Source: a virus
Strand: one strand, 5' to 3'
Virus record (IMG/VR): IMGVR_UViG_3300019487_000084
Span: 1-27,735 of that record
Length of the DNA: 27,735 bases
The notes under the pieces were generated by a model. That model searched no databases, had not been told where the DNA came from, and was given only the letters and a program-made list of their open reading frames with translations. This document shows positions 1,217-23,805 of this stretch, piece by piece. The stretch's first letter is position 1, and each line of letters begins with the position of its first letter. A program made the position numbers and the translations under genes.

Positions 1217-1357
1217 TTACTTTTCAACCTCTTTTTCTTCTGAGACCTTGAACAGAAGCTTGCCGCAGCCAGGACAGCGCGCTTCTGGCTCTTGGGGCTC
1301 AATACGAACAAGTTGCTGACAGCGAGAACGCGGGCACTTGATCTCTATGACCGTCAT
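1217..1357 (-). CDS. Com-like zinc-ribbon microprotein
   Basis: A 46-residue protein with two cysteine knuckles, CPRSRC near residue 8 and CPGCGK near residue 28, separated by a hydrophobic LVRIE segment, and an acidic/lysine tail. This resembles the Com-type zinc finger of Mu-like phages, which binds RNA and affects translation of a neighbouring gene; that role here is inference. The ATG overlaps the stop of the protease-fusion gene by ATGA, so the two are probably translationally coupled. A gap of about 80 bases with no gene follows before the head-associated protein. Confidence 0.6.
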   Translation of the reverse strand: MTVIEIKCPRSRCQQLVRIEPQEPEARCPGCGKLLFKVSEEKEVEK

Positions 1358-3429
1358 GAGTCTCCTACAATGACGACCTCACCCGCTGCATTCTTGATCT
1401 TGCGCGCCCACCCTTGCAAGCTGAAGCCCTTGAGCTGACCTGACTTGATGGCAGACCAGGCATTCTCGTCCCATACGACACCGAGCAACCAATCACCGGA
1501 GCGCACGATCTGATCATCAACCTTCCAGTCTGGTCCTCGGTAGATGTAGGACTCGACCGCCTGACCAGCGCCTCCGGTCCCTGCGCGATGCATCAGACCG
1601 ATCTTGACACCGCGACGCATGGCGTCCCACGCCGTGCGCTCAAGGTCCTCAGCGTCCATGAAGTCCTTGTGCAGGTCTAGCTCGGCCGCTGGATATGCGA
1701 CTCCCAGCGTATAGCGCTGCTCACCGGCTGCCTTGATGACCTTGTAACGCGAGAGCTGCGCGGAGGCCTCAGCGACCGAGACGACCTCGTGGCCTTCCTT
1801 GATCTTCACAATGTTCTTCGGCCAGACAATATGCTCGAAGCCGGCCTCGACAGACTTGGCGACCAGGTCGCCGAAGTCTCCCGACGTCAGAGACGGCGCG
1901 TCTTCGCCGACCTTCTCGAGCAGCCAGCCGTCACCGATCCGGCGCCAGAAGTACCTACCGGACATGAGAGGACTGCTCAACTGAAGCTCGACAGCGTCAG
2001 CAGCAGCGGCAACGAGCTGGTACGTTCCCGAATCGACCTTGATGAAGCGGTCACCCGTCTTGAATACGGGAATGTCGCTGGCTGTCATCCAGTTCATCGG
2101 ACCGATGGCCTTGAGCGTTCCTGGCGCGGTCGCAGGCCATGCCTCTGCCTGCGCATTGCCTTCCACCTCGAAACCCCAGTAACCACCAATGCGGTCCGAC
2201 GCGAAGCGTAGGACGAAGGACATCTCCGACTTTGCCTCGACCAGATCCGACAAGGACTGGCTCATCTGCTCAGGTTTGAGCCCCTTGAAGCGCGCCTGAA
2301 GGACGAAGGCCAGAGGCTGACCGGACAGCGGTAGGATGTCGTGGAACTTCTCGAACCAGTCCTTGTCGATGGGAGCAGCCATGGCAGTCCTCCCGGAGCG
2401 GTCTGGACACTGGGGGTCTCGAGGCAGACAGCCTTGCTGTGGCGGCTTGGCTGGCACGTCGGTCGATGTCAGCGTTGCCTTGAGGACCTGGCGCGCCAGA
2501 CGTAAACGTTCGTCGAAGGACATCGGTCCGTCGATTGGATACTTGGAGAATTCGACGTTGACCTGCTCGTCCAGCTCCGGTGCATTGCAGAAGCCAGACA
2601 TCGACTCCTCACCACCGCAGATCTTGCAGCGAGGGTGCATATTGGGATGAGTGAACTGAGCAGCCGCGAACTTGTGCTTCGCCATAGCCTCGGGGGTCTT
2701 CTTGCTCTGGCGAATGCGCTCGGTTTCCTCGTCATACTCCTTCTGCTTCTTCGGCGAGAGACGTTTGTTGACCTCGACAGCCGCAAGCTGGCGAATAGCG
2801 TCTTCCTTGGTATCGTGACAGCCGAGGGTGCGGGAGCCGTCCTGGGTCGTCACACACCACTTGTCCCCGCGCCGAACAATGCGCTTCGCTAGCCTCACTG
2901 TCTGCTGCATGAACCGTGACGTCCCTGCGAGGGGATAGTCCTCGCGGTCTGGACCCTTGACGCAGGTAACTGATTGGAAAATAATTGGAAACTGGGGGAT
3001 GTCCGGTACAGCATTGAGTTCGTCTCGAGTCGTATAGGCGAGGGTGATATGGGGAGTGAAGCTGTGCTCGTGCGAGACAGGTAGGTCAGCCGAATGCAAG
3101 GCTGAGACGAGGTTGTGACGGAACTCCCCCAGACCTGGCGAGTCGAACGAGGCATAGACCACGCGATCGGTTTCGTTCTGACTGAAGACGCCGACACCTG
3201 AGACGACCCCACTAACAGGCGCCGACTGCTCGACGAAGTTCGTGACGACCTTCTTGATAAGTTCCAAAGCATCGGGTGTGAAGGCATCGACCTTGCCCAT
3301 GTAGGCGAGCGTGATGTGCAACGCCTCAGGTGGTTCGCCCTCTGGCAGAGCCAGCTTCGCCGCTGCGTCCGGAGGTAGCATGAGCGCAACCATGACGCCG
3401 GTGCTGTTGACTTGCTTGAGAACGAACAT
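1354..3429 (-). CDS. Fusion: N-terminal 2H phosphoesterase (LigT-like) plus C-terminal XkdF-like maturation protease
   Basis: A 691-residue multidomain protein. Residues about 10-165 form a 2H phosphoesterase: two HITLAY motifs place the paired HxT residues at H38/T40 and H127/T129. Residues about 180-225 (WCVTTQDGSRTLGCH) are a short module seen in phage head proteins. A Cys cluster (CKICGG) follows near 268. Residues about 355-510 are an unassigned Trp-rich domain. Residues about 570-680 match XkdF-type putative serine proteases of prohead maturation, with H614 in GLMHR and S670 in GFSLQGWA as likely catalytic residues. Start is ATG with an upstream GAGGA. It lies between the gpF-like protein and the capsid genes, as expected for a maturation protease; the phosphoesterase fusion is unusual. 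Confidence 0.78.
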   Translation of the reverse strand: MFVLKQVNSTGVMVALMLPPDAAAKLALPEGEPPEALHITLAYMGKVDAFTPDALELIKKVVTNFVEQSAPVSGVVSGVGVFSQNETDRVVYASFDSPGLGEFRHNLVSALHSADLPVSHEHSFTPHITLAYTTRDELNAVPDIPQFPIIFQSVTCVKGPDREDYPLAGTSRFMQQTVRLAKRIVRRGDKWCVTTQDGSRTLGCHDTKEDAIRQLAAVEVNKRLSPKKQKEYDEETERIRQSKKTPEAMAKHKFAAAQFTHPNMHPRCKICGGEESMSGFCNAPELDEQVNVEFSKYPIDGPMSFDERLRLARQVLKATLTSTDVPAKPPQQGCLPRDPQCPDRSGRTAMAAPIDKDWFEKFHDILPLSGQPLAFVLQARFKGLKPEQMSQSLSDLVEAKSEMSFVLRFASDRIGGYWGFEVEGNAQAEAWPATAPGTLKAIGPMNWMTASDIPVFKTGDRFIKVDSGTYQLVAAAADAVELQLSSPLMSGRYFWRRIGDGWLLEKVGEDAPSLTSGDFGDLVAKSVEAGFEHIVWPKNIVKIKEGHEVVSVAEASAQLSRYKVIKAAGEQRYTLGVAYPAAELDLHKDFMDAEDLERTAWDAMRRGVKIGLMHRAGTGGAGQAVESYIYRGPDWKVDDQIVRSGDWLLGVVWDENAWSAIKSGQLKGFSLQGWARKIKNAAGEVVIVGDS

Positions 3430-3465: not shown

Positions 3466-4419
3466 CTATATTACTCCACTTGGTGGGCGAGGTGTCGGCG
3501 CCTCGACGACCCGGTCAGCTCTGGGCAGCTCGACTTCGACATTACCAGCCGGTTTGACAAGCACGCGCTGTCTACCTCGAGGTTCGTAGATTTCGGTACA
3601 GCGACACTGAATGATGTTCTCGGCTCTCCCCTTCGGGTCACCCGGGTACGCTAGCTTTTCGCCTCCGACTTCGTAATCCTCATCCAATGCGCGACGCTGA
3701 CGGTGCGCTTCCCGATGCGTTTCTCGCTCCCTACCATCGAGAACAGACAACCAGAACTTATCCATCTCCTCTCCGACTTCACGCGCCGCCTCCTGGTTAA
3801 CCAGGCTTGACGCGGCAAGCACCTCCGTACGCGCGATGACCATAGACCTGTTTGGAATCAATTCCTCGAGGTAGAGCTGCTCAATGCTGTTGGCGATCTC
3901 TCTAACCGTATCTCCTTCATGAACACCTCGTGCGAGAATAGCACGTAGCTTCTTGCGTGTCGTCTCACTGATGTCTACAACCTTCTGAGCTCCAAATTGG
4001 CGCAAGTAACGCTTGACGGCGTCATTCCAGGGGTCCTGAGGTCCCTTACGCACGAAGCCAGCACGCCGGAAACCAGCGAGCGTCTTCGGTCCGAAAGCTC
4101 GTCCAACTTCCACGTAGGACTTGGTTAGCGTGTCTGCCCACTTCTCCCGTTCAGACCGGAGGGTCCGGTCCAGACGCGACCCCACCTCTTCCGGCTCGTC
4201 TGCCTTGCTGATGGCCTCGAGAACAGCTGAGCGCTCGTCGCGGAAACGCTGTGCGACAAGGCCTCTGACGTAGCGTTGCCAGAGCGCTCGAGACGCAGCG
4301 ACCTTGCGAAGGTAGAGCTGCTCGGGTTTGTCGTCTTCGGGAATACCGATCGGTACGAAGACGACATACTTATCAAGCACTCGCAGCAGGACTTCGCGAA
4401 GGTATTTCCTACGTGTCAT
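3466..4419 (-). CDS. Head morphogenesis protein, SPP1 gp7 / Mu gpF family
   Basis: A 317-residue minor head protein. The C-terminal half carries the family signature: a helical VDISETTRKKLRAIL segment (148-162), IARTEVLAASS (195-205), RETHREAHR (232-240) and AENIIQCRCTEIYEP (266-280). The first 130 residues are helical and charged. Family members sit near the portal and are carried in the head, sometimes ejected with DNA. Its ATG overlaps the stop of the preceding gene by ATGA. A position next to the protease fusion agrees with a head role, although several unrelated-looking genes separate it from the portal. Confidence 0.82.
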   Translation of the reverse strand: MTRRKYLREVLLRVLDKYVVFVPIGIPEDDKPEQLYLRKVAASRALWQRYVRGLVAQRFRDERSAVLEAISKADEPEEVGSRLDRTLRSEREKWADTLTKSYVEVGRAFGPKTLAGFRRAGFVRKGPQDPWNDAVKRYLRQFGAQKVVDISETTRKKLRAILARGVHEGDTVREIANSIEQLYLEELIPNRSMVIARTEVLAASSLVNQEAAREVGEEMDKFWLSVLDGRERETHREAHRQRRALDEDYEVGGEKLAYPGDPKGRAENIIQCRCTEIYEPRGRQRVLVKPAGNVEVELPRADRVVEAPTPRPPSGVI

Positions 4420-5000
4420 CGCATGAGCAACAGCAGCTCATCATCATCAAGCTTGTTGACCATCGACGCACCGGAAATGACGATAGGCTCGCCAGCCATA
4501 CCCTTGCAGAAGCGCAGACCAGTCAGAACACCAGCGCCAGCAACAGGGAAGAACTCAGCAGTCAGACCTCGAGCTTCTCCAGTGAATGCGCATGCCACCA
4601 CCGCCGTCTGCTTTTTGATGTAATACTTGACGGGTCGAGGCTTCTCGACCTTCTTGCGAACTGGCGCCGGTCTGACGGGGATAGGTACCCACTGCGCCGG
4701 TTCGTAGATTGGTTCGACAGCCAAGGCCTCGAGCGCTGGTACCAGCCAGACCACACGGCCAAGATTGACCGTCGTGGCGAACCTTCGGCGCCGACCCGGC
4801 CTGAGCAGACCTGGCAGTGGCCGACCACCCTTCGAAGGTGCTTGGACAGGTGCTTGTGACGCGGACTCGAAGGGAACCAACGTACCAGTTCGAATTGTGG
4901 CAAGCGCCTCGAAAGGAATAGATGTTGAGGCACTTTGGATGGTAACTTCGCCAGCCGGAGCGCCGAATGGTGTTCCGTGCGGAGCTAGGCGAGTCGGCAT
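4416..5000 (-). CDS. Unknown virion-module protein
   Basis: A 194-residue protein I do not recognise. The N-terminal third is Pro/Ala/Ser-rich and looks disordered. A basic RPGRRRRF patch lies near residue 70, then a Pro/Val/Lys-rich linker, and then a compact Gly-rich C-terminal domain (VACAFTGEARGLTAEFF, GVLTGLRFCKGMAGEP) ending in an acidic-leucine tail. It begins three bases after the stop of the long repeat protein and overlaps the gpF-like gene by ATGA. A structural role such as a head-tail joining or tail component is likely from context only. Confidence 0.5.
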   Translation of the reverse strand: MPTRLAPHGTPFGAPAGEVTIQSASTSIPFEALATIRTGTLVPFESASQAPVQAPSKGGRPLPGLLRPGRRRRFATTVNLGRVVWLVPALEALAVEPIYEPAQWVPIPVRPAPVRKKVEKPRPVKYYIKKQTAVVACAFTGEARGLTAEFFPVAGAGVLTGLRFCKGMAGEPIVISGASMVNKLDDDELLLLMR

Positions 5001-5003
5001 GGC

Positions 5004-7940
5004 TTAGACGATGATGTATTGATCACTGACCGCTGGCGCTGTCGTGAATGCCGGCGTGACGGTGATCAGGTCGGTCGCTGGAGTAAAGGCAGTGATTTCC
5101 CGAGCTTGATACTTCTGGCTTCCCGTCAAGAAGATCACAAAACGCTTGGTCCAGAAGTCGGTGTCAGCCTGGGTCAGCGTCGAGTCTGCGAATCCGTTGA
5201 CTGTCGCTGAACCCGTCACGCTACCTGCGAACTCGACCTGCAACGCGCGCTTGAGCTGCGTCGCTTCCGTCGTCGAACCATCCACAGCTTTCATGTCAGA
5301 GTGGACTCGACCAGAGGTGAAGGCTAGCTGATCGGTCTGAGCCTTGACCGAACTGATCGTCGCATTCAGATTGTCAACGATCAACTTGCCGATGCTGCCC
5401 GCCGTCGTGAGCAGAGACGTCGCGCGGTCCCAGATTTCTTGGACCAGAGAACCACCTAGAGATGTGAGGGTTCTGGTCGCTGAGGTCCACACTTTGTCTG
5501 CTGCCGTCTGTGCGAACGCAGCCGCGTTGTTGATCGCAGCCGCTACTTCGTCGGCGCCGTTGAACGTCAGTCGCTTGACTTTCACTCCGATCGAGCTGGC
5601 TGTTGTGATATTCGACTCTAGTACATCCCACACAGCCACCGCCAGCCCCGTCGAGAACGCTGTTAGAGTCCGAGTTGTGCTCGTCCAGACTTTATCGGCA
5701 GCGGCCTGAGTGAACTGCGCCGCGTCGACTGCGTTGGCGACCAGACTGTAACCGGTCTTATCGCCTACAACCTGGGCATTGGCATCAACCCGTCCAGAGA
5801 TCAAAGCGTTCACCGCTACGCCGAGCCACAACGCCAGATCCACTCTTCCCTTTGGCAGTAGCGCGAAGATCGTCGTTCCATCTGGATTCGTTATCCAGTT
5901 CGGTGTCACCGATGCTAACTGCGTCGAACCCACATAATCGCTGACCAACCTCGCTTGGCCAGCCCCAGTGCCGCCCACCAACACCACTACTTGATCGTTG
6001 TAGAAGTCATCCGATGCACTCGCTCCTGCGTCCAATGTAATCGAGCCGGCAGCACCGGCAGCGGCGGTATTTCTTCGCACCACAGCCGATTCGATTAAGT
6101 TCCTGATCGCCTCCCCAAAGCTACCCGCTACTACATGACCGCTCCGTAGTTCATCCCATACCTTATCTACAATCGCGTCTTCCTCAGCCGTCGTCAGACT
6201 GTACCCCGTCTTATCTCCTACGACCTGAGCATTGGCATCGACTCGTCCTGAGATCAGGGTATTTGGTGTTGCACTCAGCCACCGCTGAAGGTCAACGTCC
6301 AGACGTCCTGAGATGAGCGCGTTCGGTGTCGTGCTCAACCAACGCTGGAGATCAACGTCGACCCTGCCGCTGATCAGCCCGTTCGGAGCGCTACCATTCC
6401 ATAGCCGAACGTCCACGGCTCCAGCCGGGATGATTTCGTACTCATGCGTCCCGACTGCTTGTGTTGTTGCCGGAGCAAACGTGATCGTATCTGTCCCAGC
6501 ATTGAACGCGGTGATCAGCCGGACCTGCCCAGCCAATGAGCCGCTGACGAACAGCAGCCACGTGCCTTTCCAGTAATCCGTGTCGGCTTCAGTTCTGGCA
6601 GCATCAACAAGCGTCGTCGTCGAGCCGCTGTCAGCCGTTCCGTTCGCCAGAGTCCCCAGAGAAGGGTGAGATGTGACTGCGGGTGCAGTCATCGTGCCAT
6701 CGATCCCAAGCCGATGTCGAATCTGTTCTCGTTCTCCCGACGTCCAATCTGTTGCTCCAGCACCCGCTGCCGGCACTCCTGCCGTTCTTAGAATCAAATA
6801 CGTATTAGTTCCGATCGCCTGTGTGAATGCAGGATCTACGGTCAAAGTATCCGTTGACGGATTGAACGCTGTGATCTTTCTGATCTGCCCTGCTACTAAG
6901 CCAGACGTGATCAATACCCAACTATCTTTCCAGTAGTCTGTGTCCGCTTCGGTTCGTTCCGCATCGACAATGGTCGTTGTCGAGCCAGAGTCCGCAGTCC
7001 CACTTGCAGCCTGAATGATCTTGTCAGCAGCTGCTTGAGCTAACGCCGCTGCGTTGTTAATAGCAGCAGCAACTTCATCTGATCCATTAAATGTTAGCCG
7101 CTTGACTTTCACACCAATACTGGATGCCACAGAGATTGCAGACTCAAGAACATCCCACACGGATACGGCTAACGAAGTGCTGAACGCTGTCAGAGTACGT
7201 GTCGCAGAAGACCACACTTTGTCCGCGGCGGCCTGGGAGAACTCAGACGAACCAATGGCGTCTGTTGCAATTGTTGCTGCCGTAACAGTGTCGTCCGCCA
7301 TCGAATTGACCCGCACCCGAGGTTCACCCCCGGTATTTGGATCAAGCACCGCGGCTCCGGCCCACCCTTTTATGTCCTGCCCCTCCGGAACCAGTATTTC
7401 AAATGTCGAAGCGCTGGAAGGATTTGTTCCCCACGCAGCTTCGACCGTTGCTACTTTCGTCGAGCCAACATAATCAGTAATAACACGCGCCTGCCCCTGC
7501 GCATTGGCAGGTGAATTGTTGGTGATATTGACGATCAGACCATTGTAGAAGTCGTCAATGGCTGAAGCTTCTGAGTTCAGTGTGATCGTTGTAGCAGCGC
7601 CTGCTTGAGCGGTACCAGTGCGAAGTGCCGGAAGACGCTTTGGATACAGCACCATCGGCGTTGTCTTGGCGCCGGATGTCGATGTCTTGACAATGATCGC
7701 CGTCGACTTCGTATCAAGTTCGCCTGCAATCAAGTCCAGGTAGTACATTCCGCTCGATGTTGCTAGCTCAGTCGCCTCGTTCGTTGCATCAGCAAAGGCG
7801 CCCTGATTTTGACTTAATTCAGAATCCAGACTGGCTGCCCCGGTCACGAGATCGCCGTCTGCATCAAGGATCGGGAACACGACCCTATAGCGCGCATTGT
7901 AAATCGGATATGGATGGGCGTCGCCGGACGATGCGGCCAT
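5004..7940 (-). CDS. Large modular repeat protein, probable tail/baseplate or fibre component
   Basis: A 978-residue protein starting with ATG at 7940, which shares its A with the TAA stop of the upstream gene (TAATG). The N-terminal domain (about 1-105; YRVVFPILDADGDLVTG) looks like an Ig/jelly-roll-type virion module. After that come repeats: two 71-residue blocks (236-306 and 745-815, VWDVLES and KVKRLTFNG), three beta-type modules built around ADSG..TEADTDYW (about 314, 434, 918), two DDFYN...GQAR modules (about 112 and 627), and a 20-residue unit in tandem (526-565). There are no transmembrane segments. Composition and repetition suit an extended exposed virion protein; the exact role is inference. 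Confidence 0.7.
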   Translation of the reverse strand: MAASSGDAHPYPIYNARYRVVFPILDADGDLVTGAASLDSELSQNQGAFADATNEATELATSSGMYYLDLIAGELDTKSTAIIVKTSTSGAKTTPMVLYPKRLPALRTGTAQAGAATTITLNSEASAIDDFYNGLIVNITNNSPANAQGQARVITDYVGSTKVATVEAAWGTNPSSASTFEILVPEGQDIKGWAGAAVLDPNTGGEPRVRVNSMADDTVTAATIATDAIGSSEFSQAAADKVWSSATRTLTAFSTSLAVSVWDVLESAISVASSIGVKVKRLTFNGSDEVAAAINNAAALAQAAADKIIQAASGTADSGSTTTIVDAERTEADTDYWKDSWVLITSGLVAGQIRKITAFNPSTDTLTVDPAFTQAIGTNTYLILRTAGVPAAGAGATDWTSGEREQIRHRLGIDGTMTAPAVTSHPSLGTLANGTADSGSTTTLVDAARTEADTDYWKGTWLLFVSGSLAGQVRLITAFNAGTDTITFAPATTQAVGTHEYEIIPAGAVDVRLWNGSAPNGLISGRVDVDLQRWLSTTPNALISGRLDVDLQRWLSATPNTLISGRVDANAQVVGDKTGYSLTTAEEDAIVDKVWDELRSGHVVAGSFGEAIRNLIESAVVRRNTAAAGAAGSITLDAGASASDDFYNDQVVVLVGGTGAGQARLVSDYVGSTQLASVTPNWITNPDGTTIFALLPKGRVDLALWLGVAVNALISGRVDANAQVVGDKTGYSLVANAVDAAQFTQAAADKVWTSTTRTLTAFSTGLAVAVWDVLESNITTASSIGVKVKRLTFNGADEVAAAINNAAAFAQTAADKVWTSATRTLTSLGGSLVQEIWDRATSLLTTAGSIGKLIVDNLNATISSVKAQTDQLAFTSGRVHSDMKAVDGSTTEATQLKRALQVEFAGSVTGSATVNGFADSTLTQADTDFWTKRFVIFLTGSQKYQAREITAFTPATDLITVTPAFTTAPAVSDQYIIV
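5496..5708 (-). repeat. Copy 2 of a 71-codon intragenic repeat
   Basis: Encodes residues 745-815 of the large repeat protein and is nearly identical in protein sequence to the block at 7023-7235. Many third-codon positions differ, so the duplication is old and the protein sequence has been kept by selection. Confidence 0.85.
6246..6365 (-). repeat. Tandem 20-codon repeat, two copies
   Basis: Two adjacent 60-base units encode the same 20-residue pattern (VDVDLQRWLS..PN.LISG). A shortened relative, GRVDANAQVVGDKTGYSL, occurs just downstream and again near residue 717. The units differ at a few bases. Confidence 0.8.
6429..6641 (-). repeat. Beta-module repeat (middle copy of three)
   Basis: This encodes a 71-residue GTADSG...TEADTDYWK module. 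A close copy lies at 6789-7001 and a more diverged third copy at about 5007-5189, at the C-terminus of the protein. All three keep ADTD[YF]W, ITAFN/TP and a hydrophobic end. Confidence 0.75.
7023..7235 (-). repeat. Copy 1 of a 71-codon intragenic repeat
   Basis: Encodes residues 236-306 of the large repeat protein; the partner is at 5496-5708. The shared core includes VWDVLES, SSIGVKVKRLTFNG and DEVAAAINNAAA. Confidence 0.85.
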
Positions 7941-9238
7941 TACGCAGCCCTTATACCTTGTCGACTCAGGCCCTTGAGTGCCATGTGGGGAACTCCCTCC
8001 CAACGGCGGTGTGTTGGCTGTCCTGCCGCAACGGCATCACCAAACGCGACATAACAGATTTGAGATGCCGCTGCCGGAGGATTGGTCCATGTCAGGCGAA
8101 ATGAGTTAGCAACAGCCGTCAAACTGTGGTCGGCTTCGCCATCCACAGTAGCTGGATTGGCAGCGGTAAGGAGGCGGATAGCTTTGGTCGTTACGGTCGT
8201 TTGGTCGCATCGTGTGTTCAGGGCTGCGTCGTCACCAGATATGCCACTTGTTCCTTCGTTGGTTCCGTCGCCACCGCCAAAGTGAAGGTTGCAGTCTAGA
8301 TCTCTAACGTTGGTATTAGCTATTTGGCCTGTGGCGACTAGAACAATTCCTACCGGCGTAAAACCTACACTGACGTCTTGATTGCAGTTACTGGTAGTGC
8401 AAGCGGCGGACGCACCTACTGCGTATTGACCGCCTTTAAGGAATAGGACTTGGCATTCCTTTGTGGAGCCAGGAGATGTCAACGCGTTAAGGGTACAACC
8501 GTCTGAGGTGAAATTGACAAAGTCAGCGTCAAACAAAAGAGTGGTGTCGTCGGTCAGACATGTCAGACATCTGTCGGTCCTCTGGCGCCTAATAAAGTTC
8601 ATGGTGCCGGTCATAGTTGCACCATCAACAGCATTAATACTTGTCGCCCATCTTACGGAGGAACTTTTTGCTGCGCCAACACCCCAGCGCACATTAGAGG
8701 TAAGGACTCCACCACCGCCAAGAGTACCCCCCAAAAAAATGGCAGCGTCGGGCGTAAACCCAGCACCCACCACGTCAAAATTGCCTGTCACAATTGGAAA
8801 TGGAAAGCTCATAACTTTTGCATCGGTTAAGTCAGCACCGCCTAAAGCGATATAATGAATGATGACTCCAGACGTCGTGGTACTGAAATCCACATCGAAT
8901 GTGGTCGATCCTATTGCGGAGATACTAGCGACGAGCATTAAGGAACTTGGATAATTAAAGACAGGGGTATTCACAAATAAAATAGCGGAGGAGCTAAGTG
9001 CGGTAACGTTATCGGTCGTTGCCACATTGTCGTCGTTGTTGCTGCTCATACAATGTTGCTCGCTAACCGATGTAGAACTAGCCATACCAAAGAAGAGAGG
9101 AGAATCAACGCCGATTCCTCCAGCCGTTAAAGTACCTCCGAACACAATAATGACTTTGGCTTGGAAGCCAGGTGTAACCGTGACTACTCCTGGCGACGCT
9201 GGTGCCGTGAACGTACCTTGCTTGAACTGAAGCGCCAT
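7940..9238 (-). CDS. Putative tail/surface protein with GFxP beta repeats, AT-richer than neighbours
   Basis: A 432-residue protein. It contains three related beta segments: TPGFQAKVIIVFGG (about 22), GAGFTPDAAIFLGG (about 157) and SVGFTPVGIVLVATG (about 290). These resemble modules in phage minor tail and surface proteins. It is rich in Ser, Thr, Gly and Ala and carries a dozen or so cysteines in the middle and C-terminal parts (CLTCL, CTTSNC). The DNA between about 8500 and 9150 is visibly richer in A and T than its neighbours, and its codon choice differs, which suggests acquisition from elsewhere. It ends in TAATG with the long repeat protein, so both are probably one tail module. The role is inferred from composition and context. 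Confidence 0.6.
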   Translation of the reverse strand: MALQFKQGTFTAPASPGVVTVTPGFQAKVIIVFGGTLTAGGIGVDSPLFFGMASSTSVSEQHCMSSNNDDNVATTDNVTALSSSAILFVNTPVFNYPSSLMLVASISAIGSTTFDVDFSTTTSGVIIHYIALGGADLTDAKVMSFPFPIVTGNFDVVGAGFTPDAAIFLGGTLGGGGVLTSNVRWGVGAAKSSSVRWATSINAVDGATMTGTMNFIRRQRTDRCLTCLTDDTTLLFDADFVNFTSDGCTLNALTSPGSTKECQVLFLKGGQYAVGASAACTTSNCNQDVSVGFTPVGIVLVATGQIANTNVRDLDCNLHFGGGDGTNEGTSGISGDDAALNTRCDQTTVTTKAIRLLTAANPATVDGEADHSLTAVANSFRLTWTNPPAAASQICYVAFGDAVAAGQPTHRRWEGVPHMALKGLSRQGIRAA

Positions 9239-9242
9239 TAGA

Positions 9243-9701
9243 CTATGTCCATTTCCGCTCCTGGTGCGCCGCGTTCATGATCGTGTAGTAGGAGTCGTCA
9301 GGCAGCAATGTGACGGTCTTGATGAGACCGGCCCTGAGACCTTCCGGGACGTCCGTCAGTATGCCCGCGCCGATCTTGCCTCTCGCCAGATCGAGCCAGT
9401 AGTAATCGCAGGGAGCCCCTTCGCGCTGAGTGACAGCTCCCGTGCCGAGTTCGATCTCACCTCCGCGAGTCCCGTGGAACATGTGAATGTAGTTCTCGGT
9501 CTCCAGTCGCTGGTTGATCGCCTTACCCTGCTCATCGTAGCCGTCTTGCTGCCAAATCTTATAGGTTGCGTCGAAATAGACGGTCACGCACTGAATTCCT
9601 GTAGCGCGGGATAATTCCCATGCGCCTAGAGTTTTCGGATCCAGACGTACCACCGAACCGTCCTCGTATGCAATGCGGACCCCGATCGGGATACCCGGCA
9701 T
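9243..9701 (-). CDS. Conserved-looking phage protein, unknown role
   Basis: A 152-residue soluble protein I cannot assign. It starts at ATG 9701, which shares a base with the preceding stop (TGATG) and has GAGGGAG upstream. The sequence is mixed alpha/beta with aromatic-rich stretches (VTVYFDATYKIWQQ, CDYYWLDLARG, DDSYYTIMNAAH). It ends four bases before the GFxP-repeat protein. A connector, adaptor or tail-assembly role is plausible from its position between the portal and tail-like genes, but nothing in the sequence proves it. Confidence 0.5.
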   Translation of the reverse strand: MPGIPIGVRIAYEDGSVVRLDPKTLGAWELSRATGIQCVTVYFDATYKIWQQDGYDEQGKAINQRLETENYIHMFHGTRGGEIELGTGAVTQREGAPCDYYWLDLARGKIGAGILTDVPEGLRAGLIKTVTLLPDDSYYTIMNAAHQERKWT

Positions 9702-10048
9702 CAGACTGCTCCCTCAATTCTCACAGCAGGTTCGAAGCTGAGGATGTCTCCTTGATTCTGGATGTCGACTGGCTTGCTGGACTTGAAAGGTTCTGACCAG
9801 AGGACAGTCCCGTCCTTCTGTTCGACTGAATAGCCGCTGACCGAACCCAACGGACCATCGAAACGCCAGGACAGACGACCGCAGGTCGCTATGTCATCGA
9901 TGATCTGCCAAACGCTTGATTCGACGACATGGGGTCGATAGCCGAAGCCCTTGACCTCCTGACCAGCATGCGTCAAACGCACAACCAAAGGCTGGCTCAA
10001 GAGCAGTTTGAGGACCTGACGCTCTACGGCCTTTGCCAGCCTGGCCAT
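9701..10048 (-). CDS. Small unknown virion-module protein
   Basis: A 115-residue protein with a basic helical start (MARLAKAVERQVLKLLL) followed by a beta-rich part (RLSWRFDGPLGSVSGYSV, VLWSEPFKSS). The start has GGGAG upstream, inside the end of the preceding gene. The next gene begins on its stop codon. The family is not recognised; the size and position between portal and tail-like genes would fit a head-tail connector or neck protein, as inference. Confidence 0.5.
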   Translation of the reverse strand: MARLAKAVERQVLKLLLSQPLVVRLTHAGQEVKGFGYRPHVVESSVWQIIDDIATCGRLSWRFDGPLGSVSGYSVEQKDGTVLWSEPFKSSKPVDIQNQGDILSFEPAVRIEGAV

Positions 10049-10054
10049 TTGGTT

Positions 10055-10588
10055 TTACTCCCGCTCGTGACAGCCGACCGCCTTGACACCGTCTCCACCC
10101 GGAATATCGAAGGTCCTCTCACTACCCTGCGCACAGCGGTCTGGGTCCATCTGTCGCAACCGGAAAGAGTCCTCAGTCTCGTCGACCGAGTCAGACTTAC
10201 GATCGTTACGCTGCGCCCATGCGACGGCTTCCTCGCGCGTGAAGCGATCCTTCGGGAAGATAAGCGTCTGGACGACCAACGGTGCTTGCTGCTTCGAGAA
10301 ATCCAGGCGCTCGATCTTGGTTGCCTCCCCCGCGTCCTTGCTGAGCAGACTGTCAAGGAAACGATCTCTTTTGAGATCCCAGACTGACTTTGGTGCCTTG
10401 TCGGGCTCTTCGTATGTCTGTGACGGCTCGACCTCAGGAGGCAGTGTCTTGGTGCGCGGCATGCTGGATTCAGGAAACTGCTCGGCTGCCGGCGTCGCAA
10501 CACCGGTCTTCACCGGACCCTTGCCGCCTGGAAGCGGTCCCTCGGTTCCTCCTGGCGTCCTCTTCTCGACGACGACATGCTGAGCCAT
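10055..10588 (-). CDS. Post-portal head protein, possible scaffold
   Basis: A 177-residue protein. The first 60 residues are Pro/Gly/Lys-rich and look disordered. The C-terminal part reads IFPKDRFTREEAVAWAQRND, then DSFRLRQMDP and GGDGVKAVGC. This FTxEEAxxWA...FRxRQ...GvkavvG arrangement recurs in phage head and protease-associated proteins. The ATG at 10588 follows AGGAG located in the last codons of the portal gene; an open frame continues further upstream, but that part overlaps the portal coding sequence and is rejected. The exact role is not known. Confidence 0.55.
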   Translation of the reverse strand: MAQHVVVEKRTPGGTEGPLPGGKGPVKTGVATPAAEQFPESSMPRTKTLPPEVEPSQTYEEPDKAPKSVWDLKRDRFLDSLLSKDAGEATKIERLDFSKQQAPLVVQTLIFPKDRFTREEAVAWAQRNDRKSDSVDETEDSFRLRQMDPDRCAQGSERTFDIPGGDGVKAVGCHERE

Positions 10589-10595
10589 GGCTGTT

Positions 10596-12542
10596 TTACT
10601 CCTGTGGTACTTCGGTGTCGACGGTTTGGATGATGCGCCCCTGGTCGTCTCGTACGACCTCCCGAACCATCGTTGCCTTCTTGGCTTCGGGAATATGAAC
10701 ATGCACAACAGGCGGTTCCTGACTTGCCACAGCTTCGGCGAGCTTGCCGACACTGGTCACGATAGGTTCAGTCGCTCGCTTGACCAGCTCTTCAGCCGGC
10801 AAGGGGTCTTCGAGGCCTGTTCGTAGCGCCTCGACCAGGTCTTCGAGCATCTGCTGACGGGGGTCAACAGCCGCGGCAGCGCCGAAACCGGGTAGACCAC
10901 CGCCTTCCAAAGGCTGAACGGTGATTGGTGGGATACCCAGATGCTTGATCGGTGGTAACCCCACCGCAGCAAGCGACTCGGCTGGGTCGAAGCCAGCCCG
11001 AATGAGCGCGCCGAGCTGCTCGACTCCTCCCCGCAATCGTTGGCCGTTGAAGTAATAGACGTCAAGTTCCGGTCGGTCGTTGACTTTATCCTCGCCGACC
11101 ATCTCTCGAGCTTGGTTTGGGGTAACGAATCCACCAGACACACCGCGGGAAGCGCGATCGAGGTCCTGCTCCATCTGCGTCAGGTCGATCTCCGCAAGCT
11201 TGAACTGGTAGCCCCCAGTATCGATGCCTCCCTTGTCGGGGTTGAACAAAGTCATCTTGACGCGATCCTCGATGACCCGTTGTAGTGGCTTGACCGATCC
11301 GATCTGGTATGCCTCGAGCATTTCCTTTGCTGCTGATCCACCGAGCGATCCCAGTTCCGCCCATCCGACACGGTAGGGAGGAACGTTATGAACGATTAGA
11401 ACTTCCTTGATGAGGTCCGTCCTGCGGAAGCGGAAGTGGCCGTCCCGGAGCTGCTGCGTTAGCTGAACTACATTCACAGTGACGTCAGGCGATCCAGACG
11501 TGACTAGTGTCGTGTGACCCAGTCCTCGATTGGCTTCGAGCTGCTGTCTGATCTCTTCAGCAATGCGCTGAGCCGCTGAGGCTTCTGCTGCATTGACGTG
11601 AATTGAACGGTCAGTCTGCCCGCCCGATGAGAACCATGAGACGTTGAACTCCCGGATAGCCGTCAGCTCGGCAATGGTCGGAATAGCCGACACCCAGCGC
11701 GGGATGCCGTACCACTGGGAACGGGGTGAATAGGTCTTGAACAGAATGAGTTCGGTCGCAATGTGAGCTGGGTCTTGCGGGACTTCAAGAGGTCCGTATT
11801 CCTTACCGTTCACAGAGTGTATGCGCTTCTGGCTACCGAATACTTTGAAGTATCGAATTCTACCAGCACGGACCTGGAGCCAGACCTCATCGTCAATGGT
11901 TGCTCGCAGCGTATGCGCTGGGAGAGGATACATCGCTCCGATTGTCCCGTCGGGGTTGCGCACGACTTCCCACGAGGACCAACCAATGCTCTCCAATTCC
12001 GTTGCAGCCTGCGTCAGCATCTCGCTGAAGGTATAGTCCGGTGTCAGATCCTCGAGCTGTTCCTTGAGACGCGCCGGCAATGTCGGGTCAAGTTGGTCGA
12101 CCTGACCGGCGACCTGGACGCCGTCTTCCTTGCGAATGCGAGCGCGCAGAGCGCCATACTTGCGGCGCTGTTGGATCGGTTCGAACATAGCTGAGCCATT
12201 ACCATTGGAGGGGACTGCGATTGGCTCAAAGACCTGGTCAGGTTCGCGAGGTGTTGGTGCCTGGTTGACATTTTCAGGTGCGACGAAGTCATAACCGCGG
12301 CCAGCGGCATCGTCAGCTTTGGTCATGATGGCTGCCGCATGAATGCTGTTCTCTTCCAGGAGCTGGAGAAGACGCTCAGGAGCAAGAGGTGGTTCGAGGG
12401 CAAGACCCTGCGTATAGAACGATGCGAATGGGTCTCTGATCTGATTGGAGCGAAGCTGATTGGTCCCGCCTTGCTTGACGACATAGGCGAGCATGCCGCG
12501 CGTGTGGTCGGCAGCCTTCTCGGTCTTACGGCGGCGCGCCAT
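10596..12542 (-). CDS. Portal protein (PBSX/SPP1-like)
   Basis: A 648-residue portal, the ring at the head vertex through which DNA is packaged and leaves. Recognisable elements are: the N-terminal segment ending in MTKADDAAGRGYDFV; LESIGWSSWEVVRNPDG; the core SPRSQWYGIPRWVSAIPTI with the following FNVSWFSSGG; the stem-region helix; VPPYRVGWAELGSLGGSAAKE; and QAREMVGEDKVNDRPELDVYYF. The C-terminal 150 residues are acidic and Pro-rich, ending in an HVHIPEAKK stretch. The start at 12542 has GGGAGG upstream inside the end of the dNMP kinase gene, a 17-base overlap. Length is somewhat above the common portal size because of the tail region. Confidence 0.88.
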   Translation of the reverse strand: MARRRKTEKAADHTRGMLAYVVKQGGTNQLRSNQIRDPFASFYTQGLALEPPLAPERLLQLLEENSIHAAAIMTKADDAAGRGYDFVAPENVNQAPTPREPDQVFEPIAVPSNGNGSAMFEPIQQRRKYGALRARIRKEDGVQVAGQVDQLDPTLPARLKEQLEDLTPDYTFSEMLTQAATELESIGWSSWEVVRNPDGTIGAMYPLPAHTLRATIDDEVWLQVRAGRIRYFKVFGSQKRIHSVNGKEYGPLEVPQDPAHIATELILFKTYSPRSQWYGIPRWVSAIPTIAELTAIREFNVSWFSSGGQTDRSIHVNAAEASAAQRIAEEIRQQLEANRGLGHTTLVTSGSPDVTVNVVQLTQQLRDGHFRFRRTDLIKEVLIVHNVPPYRVGWAELGSLGGSAAKEMLEAYQIGSVKPLQRVIEDRVKMTLFNPDKGGIDTGGYQFKLAEIDLTQMEQDLDRASRGVSGGFVTPNQAREMVGEDKVNDRPELDVYYFNGQRLRGGVEQLGALIRAGFDPAESLAAVGLPPIKHLGIPPITVQPLEGGGLPGFGAAAAVDPRQQMLEDLVEALRTGLEDPLPAEELVKRATEPIVTSVGKLAEAVASQEPPVVHVHIPEAKKATMVREVVRDDQGRIIQTVDTEVPQE

Positions 12543-13161
12543 GCCATCCTCCCATCATATGGTCGACCAGCTTGAACAGGTCGTCAAGCGAACCGTCGTT
12601 CATTAAAACACGGTCCCACGACTCCCACGCATCAAGACCGTGCTCGGATGCATGGTCATTATACTTCGCGGTTTGGTTCTGCCGCAGAATCTTAACCAGC
12701 TTACCATTGAACCGACGGATAGTGAAGGCTTCGTTGATGAAGCGCGTGTCAGACACAACGACATTGAAGGATTGCTTCATGAGCTGAGCGTAGTCGTTCG
12801 ACCATTGCTTGATCCAATAGTCAGTGTCATCACGACGTCGGACCTCGGTCCCGTACTCCTGGAGCAGTCGGCGCATAATGGGTGAGCGCTCGACGTTCAT
12901 GACGTAATCCAGCCTTCGGTCCCACCATTCTTCTATGTTCGGTTGAGATTGAGGGAGCTGAAGCGCTATTGGTAGATTCGGAAGACTACCAGCCAATTCA
13001 TCAGCTATAGTGATTTCCTTGCACGTCGCACGAAGTCGGGTCGCAACTTCCAGCTTCAACGCTCCAGCGAAACGCAAGACTCTGAAGCCGTATTTGCTAC
13101 TAAGGTGACTTGCAACTGCGTCCTTGCCTGATTCGATAATACCGTGCAAGCCGATCAGCAT
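12526..13161 (-). CDS. Deoxynucleoside monophosphate kinase
   Basis: A 211-residue P-loop kinase that phosphorylates dNMPs to dNDPs for phage DNA synthesis. The Walker A loop is GIIESGKD (7-14). The usual SDTRFINEA segment lies near residue 137, and a HASEHGL stretch (about 171) precedes a DRVLMNDGS region, all typical of T4 gene 1-like phage dNMP kinases. It sits next to a HAD nucleotidase, a nucleotide-metabolism pair between structural genes. The ribosome-binding site is weak (GGTGTGTC before ATG). Confidence 0.82.
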   Translation of the reverse strand: MLIGLHGIIESGKDAVASHLSSKYGFRVLRFAGALKLEVATRLRATCKEITIADELAGSLPNLPIALQLPQSQPNIEEWWDRRLDYVMNVERSPIMRRLLQEYGTEVRRRDDTDYWIKQWSNDYAQLMKQSFNVVVSDTRFINEAFTIRRFNGKLVKILRQNQTAKYNDHASEHGLDAWESWDRVLMNDGSLDDLFKLVDHMMGGWHGAPP

Positions 13162-22007: not shown

Positions 22008-23579
22008 TCAATCGAAGCGACGAGGTGGTTCGTGGTCTACCCTGGGGTCGCGAAGTATCTTGCTGCTGAGAAGATGAGGCTGCTGATGCCTGGCAGACCG
22101 CTGGACAAGACCCACGACATGACCCTCGCTCGGGGGCCTAGACATTTGATCGTGGAGACGCCGCAACGCCTGGGTGCACTGGTCAACTTGGTCGTCATAA
22201 CCAGACGGGAACGACGCGCACTCCCGAATGAAATTCTCCACCCATGGCGCAATCGCTGGATCAGGCAGGAAGACGTTGCCGGCTTCGACCATGTGAGAGA
22301 CAGCATAGGCACGCGCGATCTTCCCGCCTTCAGGATTCACAGCAATCAAACCGGGGATCTCATGCTCCAGTGAAGAGACGACCGCTGGACCGTTGGCTTT
22401 GTCCTCGACCAGCTTCTCCCGGATCATCGGCCATCTGGCAACGAAGGACCTGATGGCCTGGATAGTCGCGGGGAAGTCGAGACGCTCGCGGATCTGATCG
22501 AACAGGTAGCAGCTCGCACCGAACCGAGCCCACCCTCCCATCGCGACATAGTCCGAGTCAGCCAACCCCTTGAAGGCACAGTCCAAACTGAGAATAATGT
22601 CATCAGCACGCGACAGGTCTGGTAGTTCCCGGAAGTATTTCCACCAACCCCTCTTCAGGATACCTCCCTCGGCCGGTGCCGGAGTCTGCTGATGCTGCGC
22701 TGCGAAACCGTAAGAACCCAGGTCGATTCTTGCTTGGGCAACCTGCTCGGGGCCGAACCTGTCTGGCCATAGCAGCTCGCCCTCGAGGCTTCGAGGGTCA
22801 CGCCAACCAATGCGGGAGGGTAAGACTATTCGTGAAGCAGAGTATTCCGTCGGCAAGACTAGTGTCTCATAGCCTGCGTCCTTGGCTTCGAGGTGTCCGG
22901 CAAGGTCCTGTTCATGAACTCGCTGCATGATGATGACCCGTGCCGACTTCTTCGGATCGTTGCGCCGTGTTGACATGACCTCGTCCCACCACTTGCAGGT
23001 CGCTTTCCGTGTGACCTCCGAATGCGCCTCGAGGACGTTGTGCGGATCGTCGCAAACGATGACATCTCCACCCTCACCGGTGTTGGAGCCCTCAACCGAC
23101 GTCGCCAGACGATAGCCCGCATTGTCGTTCTCGTACCGTGTCTTCTCGTTCTGGTCTCCAATGAGCTGGAAGCACTGACCCCATCGAGCTTGGTACCACG
23201 GCGACTGGATGAGGTGGCGGCTGTCGACGCTGTCTCTGGTCGAGAGCGACTGTGCATAGGACGACGTCAACCACTTCAGACCCGGCTTCTCGATCCAACT
23301 CCAGGTCGGCCACATGACTGAGGCTGTACGAGACTTGCCATGACGCGGAGGAACGCTGATGATGAGGTCGCGGATCTGCCGGCGCGTGATGGCTACGAGG
23401 TGCTCGCAGATAGCATCAATGTGCCAGCCAGGGGTGAATAGCGCGTTGGGCTCAACGACCTGCCAAGCCTGCGCCACGTATTCGCGAAGGTGTTTGGTCG
23501 CCTTGAGTGTGTCTGTCTGCTCCTCGTCGACCAGCTCGAGAGGCATTTCCTCAAGGCTAACGGTTTGACGACGCGCCAT
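22008..23579 (-). CDS. Terminase large subunit (packaging ATPase/nuclease)
   Basis: A 523-residue TerL that drives DNA into the prohead and cuts it. Walker A is VPPRHGKSR (76-84) and Walker B is VIVCDDP (173-179). The RNase H-like nuclease has LSLDCAFKG (D333), VEDKANG (E392) and SGYDDQVDQ (D462/D463/D466). ATG 23579 has GGGAGG upstream; an upstream open frame of 50 codons has no good site. The C-terminal 45 residues are His/Arg/Pro-rich and unlike usual TerL tails. The next gene begins 29 bases later. Confidence 0.93.
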   Translation of the reverse strand: MARRQTVSLEEMPLELVDEEQTDTLKATKHLREYVAQAWQVVEPNALFTPGWHIDAICEHLVAITRRQIRDLIISVPPRHGKSRTASVMWPTWSWIEKPGLKWLTSSYAQSLSTRDSVDSRHLIQSPWYQARWGQCFQLIGDQNEKTRYENDNAGYRLATSVEGSNTGEGGDVIVCDDPHNVLEAHSEVTRKATCKWWDEVMSTRRNDPKKSARVIIMQRVHEQDLAGHLEAKDAGYETLVLPTEYSASRIVLPSRIGWRDPRSLEGELLWPDRFGPEQVAQARIDLGSYGFAAQHQQTPAPAEGGILKRGWWKYFRELPDLSRADDIILSLDCAFKGLADSDYVAMGGWARFGASCYLFDQIRERLDFPATIQAIRSFVARWPMIREKLVEDKANGPAVVSSLEHEIPGLIAVNPEGGKIARAYAVSHMVEAGNVFLPDPAIAPWVENFIRECASFPSGYDDQVDQCTQALRRLHDQMSRPPSEGHVVGLVQRSARHQQPHLLSSKILRDPRVDHEPPRRFD

Positions 23580-23622
23580 TCGTCGACCTCCCCCTGAACC
23601 ATAGACCGGCTGTGTTACGCTC

Positions 23623-23805
23623 TCAGACTCGTCGCACTTGACCCGTCCGATGTAGCTCTCCCAGCATCCGACGAAGTCGGCGATTGGGCAAGCGCGTATC
23701 CTTGGCAAGCTCGTAGATAGTCTTGCCATGGTCTTCAGTCAGGAGGGACAGCACAAGTGCGCGATGGAGGGAGAAAACAGCGAACTGATACGTTACTGCG
23801 TCCAC
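23623..23805 (-). CDS. Small HTH protein
   Basis: A protein of about 60 residues. HGKTIYELAKDTRLPNRRLR followed by RMLGELHRTGQVRRV reads as a winged helix with a C-terminal wing. The GTG start at 23805 has GAGG four bases before it, inside the previous gene; an ATG at 23832 would add nine residues but lacks a site. It lies just before the large terminase gene, where small DNA-binding packaging or regulatory proteins are common. Confidence 0.55.
   Translation of the reverse strand: MDAVTYQFAVFSLHRALVLSLLTEDHGKTIYELAKDTRLPNRRLRRMLGELHRTGQVRRV

Follow-up and report, generated by a model that had tools for sequence, protein, structure and literature searches.

The gene at 1354-3429 of the window (the whole stretch of DNA that was analysed, 27,735 nucleotides) joins a 2H phosphoesterase to a phage head protease. 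The 2H fold and its catalytic tetrad are predicted to be intact, the protease signature is intact, and fusion of such 2H domains to head proteins is recurrent. We give about an even chance to the reading that this is a head maturation protease with an enzyme cargo, and that the cargo is a nucleotide or RNA phosphodiesterase delivered from the head.

Positions 1354-3429 are a single open frame of 691 codons on the minus strand, with its ATG at 3429. The earlier note described HxT motifs (H38/T40 and H127/T129) at the N-terminus and an XkdF-like protease at the C-terminus. Both ends are as it said: PF13563 and PF02834 score above cut-off at one end and Peptidase_S78_2 matches with E 4e-17 at the other. 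It missed the middle, which has a DUF2188-like element and a LigD-phosphoesterase-like domain. The HxT motifs are not there by chance, since the Pfam families 2_5_RNA_ligase2 (E 2e-12) and LigT_PEase (E 7e-9) both match past their curated cut-offs. Nor is the fusion an assembly chimera. An independent contig (L008) carries the same 2H / DUF2188-like / middle / XkdF order, with identities of 62, 61, 55 and 78%. The full-length AlphaFold model has a mean pLDDT of 60.9 and is usable for the 2H and DUF2188-like parts only. Its listed matches to solved structures are all to the 2H part, and the comparison bears on that fold alone. The phrog_3684 element (DUF2188-like) also occurs in further phage proteins, and residues 184-222 fall under the cut-off of Pfam DUF2188 itself (E 0.09). 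The low-confidence stretch holds a CxxC..C cluster (HPRCKICGG...GFCN, residues 265-281, window 2587-2637) that is also present in L008 and is a possible metal site.

Table 1. Coordinates in the window of the fusion gene, its parts and the head genes around it.
Feature	Position	Strand	Evidence
Virion structural / major head protein gene start, downstream, cut by contig end	2..424	-	phrog_1623 E 5e-27
691-aa fusion protein: 2H phosphoesterase / DUF2188-like / LigD-PE-like / XkdF head protease	1354..3429	-	open frame and domain matches; same order in L008
XkdF / Peptidase_S78_2 head maturation protease, residues 563-678; H614 and S670 likely catalytic	1396..1743	-	E 4e-17
Probable degenerate LigD 3'-phosphoesterase-like domain, residues about 340-520	1870..2412	-	profile matches and motif of kin
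Low-confidence stretch with CxxC..C cluster, residues 244-341	2407..2700	-	pLDDT mostly 30-64
DUF2188-like small domain, residues 184-222	2764..2880	-	phrog_3684 E 3e-11; pLDDT about 88
2H phosphoesterase domain, residues 10-169	2923..3402	-	Pfam PF13563 and PF02834; AlphaFold pLDDT 93.6; drCPDase Z 18.5
Tyr132, site of phosphate-binding Arg130 in E. coli LigT	3034..3036	-	Tyr in 80/80 head-fused viral relatives; Arg in 48/49 cellular ThpR
Second HxT motif, H127-I-T129	3043..3051	-	invariant 53/53
First HxT motif, H38-I-T40	3310..3318	-	invariant 53/53
MuF-like head morphogenesis protein, immediately upstream of fusion gene	3466..4419	-	PF04233 E 1e-10; phrog_2468 E 4e-44
Portal protein, farther upstream	10596..12542	-	phrog_12 E 1e-33
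Terminase large subunit, farther upstream	22008..23729	-	phrog_38 E 1e-91

The domain has the two HxT/S motifs and the predicted fold that define the 2H superfamily. Modelled alone from an alignment with 52 viral-contig relatives, it reaches a mean pLDDT of 93.6 and matches solved 2H enzymes. The best is the Deinococcus RNA 2',3'-cyclic phosphodiesterase drCPDase (Z 18.5, rmsd 2.6 over 160 residues), followed by the Thermus enzyme (17.5), E. coli LigT (about 15), AKAP18 (14.7), Usb1 (14.1) and rotavirus VP3 (14.0). The scores are 11.5 for a Burkholderia phage Acb1-type enzyme, 10.3 for FBB1 Acb1 and 9.3 for the penguinpox cGAMP enzyme. The structure comparison that the earlier note asked for supports a 2H fold. 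In 53 of 53 divergent relatives, a count that leaves out L010, the residues of the catalytic tetrad do not vary.

The type anti-CBASS enzyme, T4 Acb1, is a solo protein, and the infected cell is where it is produced. The likeness to Acb1 that the earlier note drew holds in part. The domain does not belong to the Acb1 family, since PF23474 gives 18.8 bits for the whole protein and 21.8 for the domain alone against a curated cut-off of 27, and its fold is nearer to ThpR/LigT (18.5 and 15 versus 10.3). What it shares with Acb1 (T4 57B) is the HxT/HxT tetrad (PMC9117128), the Tyr five residues after both His and a TGxxVA start. Its C-terminal part is longer and appears to be without the Acb1 lid. 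By sequence register, the four base-stacking residues of Acb1, Y12, W74, F107 and W147, correspond to M13, F82, E121 and no clear equivalent, so that only W74 appears to have an aromatic counterpart. This counts against a defence role for a delivered enzyme, as does a nearest fold that is an RNA end enzyme and not Acb1. ThpR/LigT is not the family either. The TIGR02258 equivalog scores 48.9 bits, short of its curated cut-off of 65.7, and the window protein also differs from ThpR in being fused and in having Tyr for the Arg of HITLAR.

We scanned viral contigs with a 2H-domain profile and kept the best 80 matches, a sample that includes near-copies and is no census. The residue five after the second catalytic His is Tyr in all 80 of these head-fused relatives. 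It is Arg in 48 of the 49 cellular solo ThpR counted, and the lone exception is a miscounted motif. In E. coli LigT this Arg130 binds the product phosphate and the attacking water (PMC5283653), and TIGR02258 calls for its equivalent, where the window has Tyr132. This position is also Tyr in T4 Acb1 and in four divergent Acb1 proteins, which have a Tyr after the first motif too. The clade thus pairs a ThpR-like fold with a single feature of the active site that is Acb1-like. The marker separates the clade from cellular ThpR by one residue; it does not fix the substrate. The same kind of search in bacterial genomes splits its matches. Those ranked higher are long, fused and have Tyr (in Streptomyces, Nonomuraea, Chloroflexi and others), and those below are solo ThpR of 175-250 aa with Arg. 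The marker is a simple way to distinguish head-fused 2H domains from cellular ThpR, and it is also a point to mutate. One solo 2H protein, of 178 aa, has the Tyr of the head clade and lies near the end of a Calidithermus chliarophilus contig (L114).

The protease scores 62.9 bits against PF14550 (Peptidase_S78_2), past the curated cut-off of 24. It shares its C-terminal place and the conserved His, Ser and Glu with the PBSX XkdF-type protease. H614 and S670 are invariant in 10 relatives and are the predicted catalytic pair. Its kin differ at the N-terminus. Some (L095, L096) are short and have no N-terminal enzyme. Two others (L091:503-3700 and L092:2664-5378) begin with an ATP-dependent DNA ligase (E 7e-14 and 5e-12), and behind it comes a LigD-phosphoesterase-like domain in which the LHFDLRL motif is intact. 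Searched against the PDB with phmmer, the ligase region of L092 yields chance-level matches only. L091 contains, in addition, a methyltransferase-like stretch. A related ligase protein is encoded close to the terminase gene of ANMV-1 virus. In L098:1913-5800 of the same virus, a gene labelled 'MutT-like phage hydrolase' reads like a putative portal protein, and after it comes an 866-aa ligase with phosphoesterase-like parts.

The ligase kin explain how we read the middle of the window protein. Aligned with L091 and L092, its best PDB profile matches are 3p4h (E 0.008), 3p43 (E 0.009) and 5dmp (E 0.12), all LigD-type phosphoesterase domains or look-alikes. Without these two sequences 3p4h is second, with E 0.18. 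The window has MSFVLRF where the kin have LHFDLRL, which means that the His and Asp are lost. The middle has no Pfam match to the LigD 3'-phosphoesterase (PF13298), and the catalytic LHxDxR residues are replaced. A LigD_N search of three related contigs found no match, so the reading is drawn from the profile matches and the motif of L091 and L092. On these grounds the middle is probably a decayed LigD 3'-phosphoesterase-like domain. A metallophosphoesterase paper that we considered (PMC12287305) is unrelated.

One can imagine a scenario where head proteins carry a repair kit for nucleic-acid ends, and the 2H enzyme hydrolyses the 2',3'-cyclic phosphates that anticodon nucleases or ribotoxins leave on RNA. 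The nearest folds are RNA 2',3'-cyclic phosphodiesterases, and the closest profile match is 5h7e (E 7e-12). The kin with ligase and phosphoesterase on the same protease also point to end processing rather than to defence, and the window retains what is probably a decayed copy of the phosphoesterase domain. However, the window genes that were scanned include no recognisable RNA ligase or kinase, and the window's phosphoesterase-like domain is without its His and Asp. The phosphate-binding Arg of ThpR has become Tyr in this clade, and in the work of Iyer et al. 2H domains of this type never occur together with RNA ligases (PMC5512222). We consider end healing unlikely.

The fusion gene sits inside the head operon, with the effector domain joined to a head-module protein, which fits the head-packaged effectors or polyvalent proteins of Iyer et al. 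2017. All of the 80 closest viral relatives lie within ORFs of 274-1026 aa, and none has the size of a solo 2H protein. At least 61 are joined to portal, MuF, XkdF, S78, Mu-I protease/scaffold or protease-capsid domains, as assigned by Pfam, PHROG and purpose-built profiles. Among these best 80 the partner is a portal in 27 (several are portal-2H-MuF), an S78 protease with a scaffold-like part after it in 14, XkdF in 13, a Mu-I-type protease in 4 and a protease-capsid fusion in 3. The remaining 19 matched no partner profile, and some of them have weaker head matches. Within the head operon the 2H domain occupies several junctions: portal-2H-MuF (L081), MuF-2H-XkdF (L035), 2H-XkdF (window, L008), S78-2H-scaffold (L042) and 2H-protease-capsid (L015). 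In Arthrobacter phage Mufasa8 (L006:2134-5136) a Nudix-like domain can be seen by eye between the portal and MuF parts, and this portal-MuF gene adjoins a solo XkdF protease.

On a tree of 53 2H domains those joined to XkdF are not monophyletic (p-AU 1.4e-4, with partner labels set before the tree, the test picked after viewing it, and long branches). Going by this tree, fusion of 2H to XkdF has changed repeatedly. Repeated separate fusions to different head-module proteins suggest, if indirectly, that the enzyme is packed into the head and enters the bacterium inside the virus particle. The Dar anti-defence proteins of P1, which are packed, protease-processed and co-ejected (PMC12810830), are a precedent. 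We put delivery of the 2H enzyme by the head at somewhat better than even.

The fusions could be kept for co-expression alone. The 2H enzyme would then act late in the producing cell, with the fusion coupling its expression, or it would be a structural part of the procapsid. The gene does have a late operon position, and the decay of the neighbouring phosphoesterase-like domain implies that enzymes in this slot can lose activity. However, co-expression does not need repeated fusion to unrelated head proteins, and the invariant tetrad argues for retained catalysis. A 2H domain with no injected role seems very improbable to us.

The idea of injection is not ours. Iyer et al. 2017 (PMC5512222) described 2H domains on MuF and portal proteins and proposed that they are injected, in an RNase or anti-nucleotide-signal role. 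The idea was repeated in 2022 (PMC9503650). Their polyvalent proteins are MuF and portal fusions; here there are also fusions to XkdF, S78, Mu-I-type protease and protease-capsid proteins. An injected RNase, whether a Usb1-like 3' exonuclease or an RNA processing enzyme serving host takeover, would fit the Usb1 fold match and the positional equivalence with PBECR RNase fusions (PMC5512222). The fold is closer to the cyclic phosphodiesterases than to Usb1, though, and we find such an effector quite improbable.

For the head-delivered phosphodiesterase we infer packaging, cleavage, injection and substrate as follows. The XkdF part and the scaffold-like middle would bring the chain into the procapsid. 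At maturation the protease would cut its own chain as well as head proteins, and the N-terminal 2H enzyme would remain in the head and exit with the DNA. Release by self-cleavage, as the earlier note suggested, is plausible given the conserved His and Ser of the protease and the low-confidence stretch before the middle domain. Residues 244-341 may be the place of release, going by the model. The phosphodiesterase would be active ahead of any phage gene expression. It would open cyclic or 2'-5' phosphodiesters, most likely of a defence nucleotide (a CBASS-type signal or a 2'-5'/2',3'-cyclic species) and less likely at 2',3'-cyclic RNA ends. Viral LigT-like enzymes often counter nucleotide immune signals (PMC11410667). 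Once delivery is granted, a defence nucleotide as the target is an even call, and anti-defence activity is an inference here as in the earlier note. If the enzyme does arrive with the DNA, the phage would meet signalling defences with it before its own genes are read.

This architecture is already known from deposited phages. Arthrobacter Laroyevirus gp18 (Salgado, Laroye, LiSara), Kovu gp20 and Ottawa gp87, as well as Microbacterium ValentiniPuff gp7, likewise have a 2H domain and then an XkdF-type protease. Their genes directly follow portal and MuF-like genes and precede that of the capsid, an order like that of the window. The proteins are only about 370-390 aa long, without the DUF2188-like and LigD-PE-like middle, and their 2H domains are 28-38% identical to that of the window. 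Their database labels are 'RNA ligase', 'aldolase class I' or 'capsid maturation protease'. If the delivery reading is true, 2H fusions labelled 'RNA ligase', 'aldolase' or 'capsid maturation protease' need renaming. Culturable phages with a matching architecture exist, which makes the question directly testable. New as far as we searched are the three-part protein, in which a LigD-type domain has probably decayed, the Tyr marker, the fusions to several protease and capsid types, and the ligase-phosphoesterase-XkdF proteins.

True Acb1 domains are also found on head proteins of isolated phages, which speaks for head delivery of 2H enzymes. With T4 Acb1 as the query, we found that a Rhizobium phage portal has an Acb1 domain at its C-terminus (PF23474, 114.6 bits, cut-off 27). 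This is L186:7-1833 of phage RHph_TM3_3_3, and loci L187-L260 are alike. Relatives occur on portals of Pseudomonas phiPSA1 and of Synechococcus, Sinorhizobium and Pseudanabaena phages. They also occur on 74 viral contigs, in ORFs mostly of about 600 aa among those read. The cyanophage Pam3 portal, all 621 aa of it and with such a C-terminus, is the sequence of the solved portal PDB 8hds. Several portal-Acb1 copies are without a recognisable second HxT, which was seemingly lost. We found no paper naming Acb1 on portals; Iyer et al. 2017 cover 2H on portals generally. The DSS3P8 'prohead protease' gp129 is not a fusion and is a solo Acb1-like protein of 150 aa.

A wider reading is tentative and on balance doubtful. 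Tailed phages would widely preload their heads with 2H phosphodiesterases by way of any protein that enters the procapsid (portal, MuF, protease, scaffold or capsid precursor), and so would destroy immune nucleotides from the moment of DNA entry. The present clade would combine Acb1-like activity with a ThpR-like fold and have the Arg-to-Tyr change as its mark, and the portal Acb1 would be the same strategy reached separately. The XkdF N-terminus would be an exchangeable slot that also takes ligase and phosphoesterase modules.

Portal and MuF genes are usually adjacent. In the window about 6 kb of genes (4416-10595) separate them, including one for a 999-aa protein with no family match (5004-8003). 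A deoxynucleoside monophosphate kinase gene (12526-13161, phrog_139 E 3e-38) overlaps the start of the portal gene.
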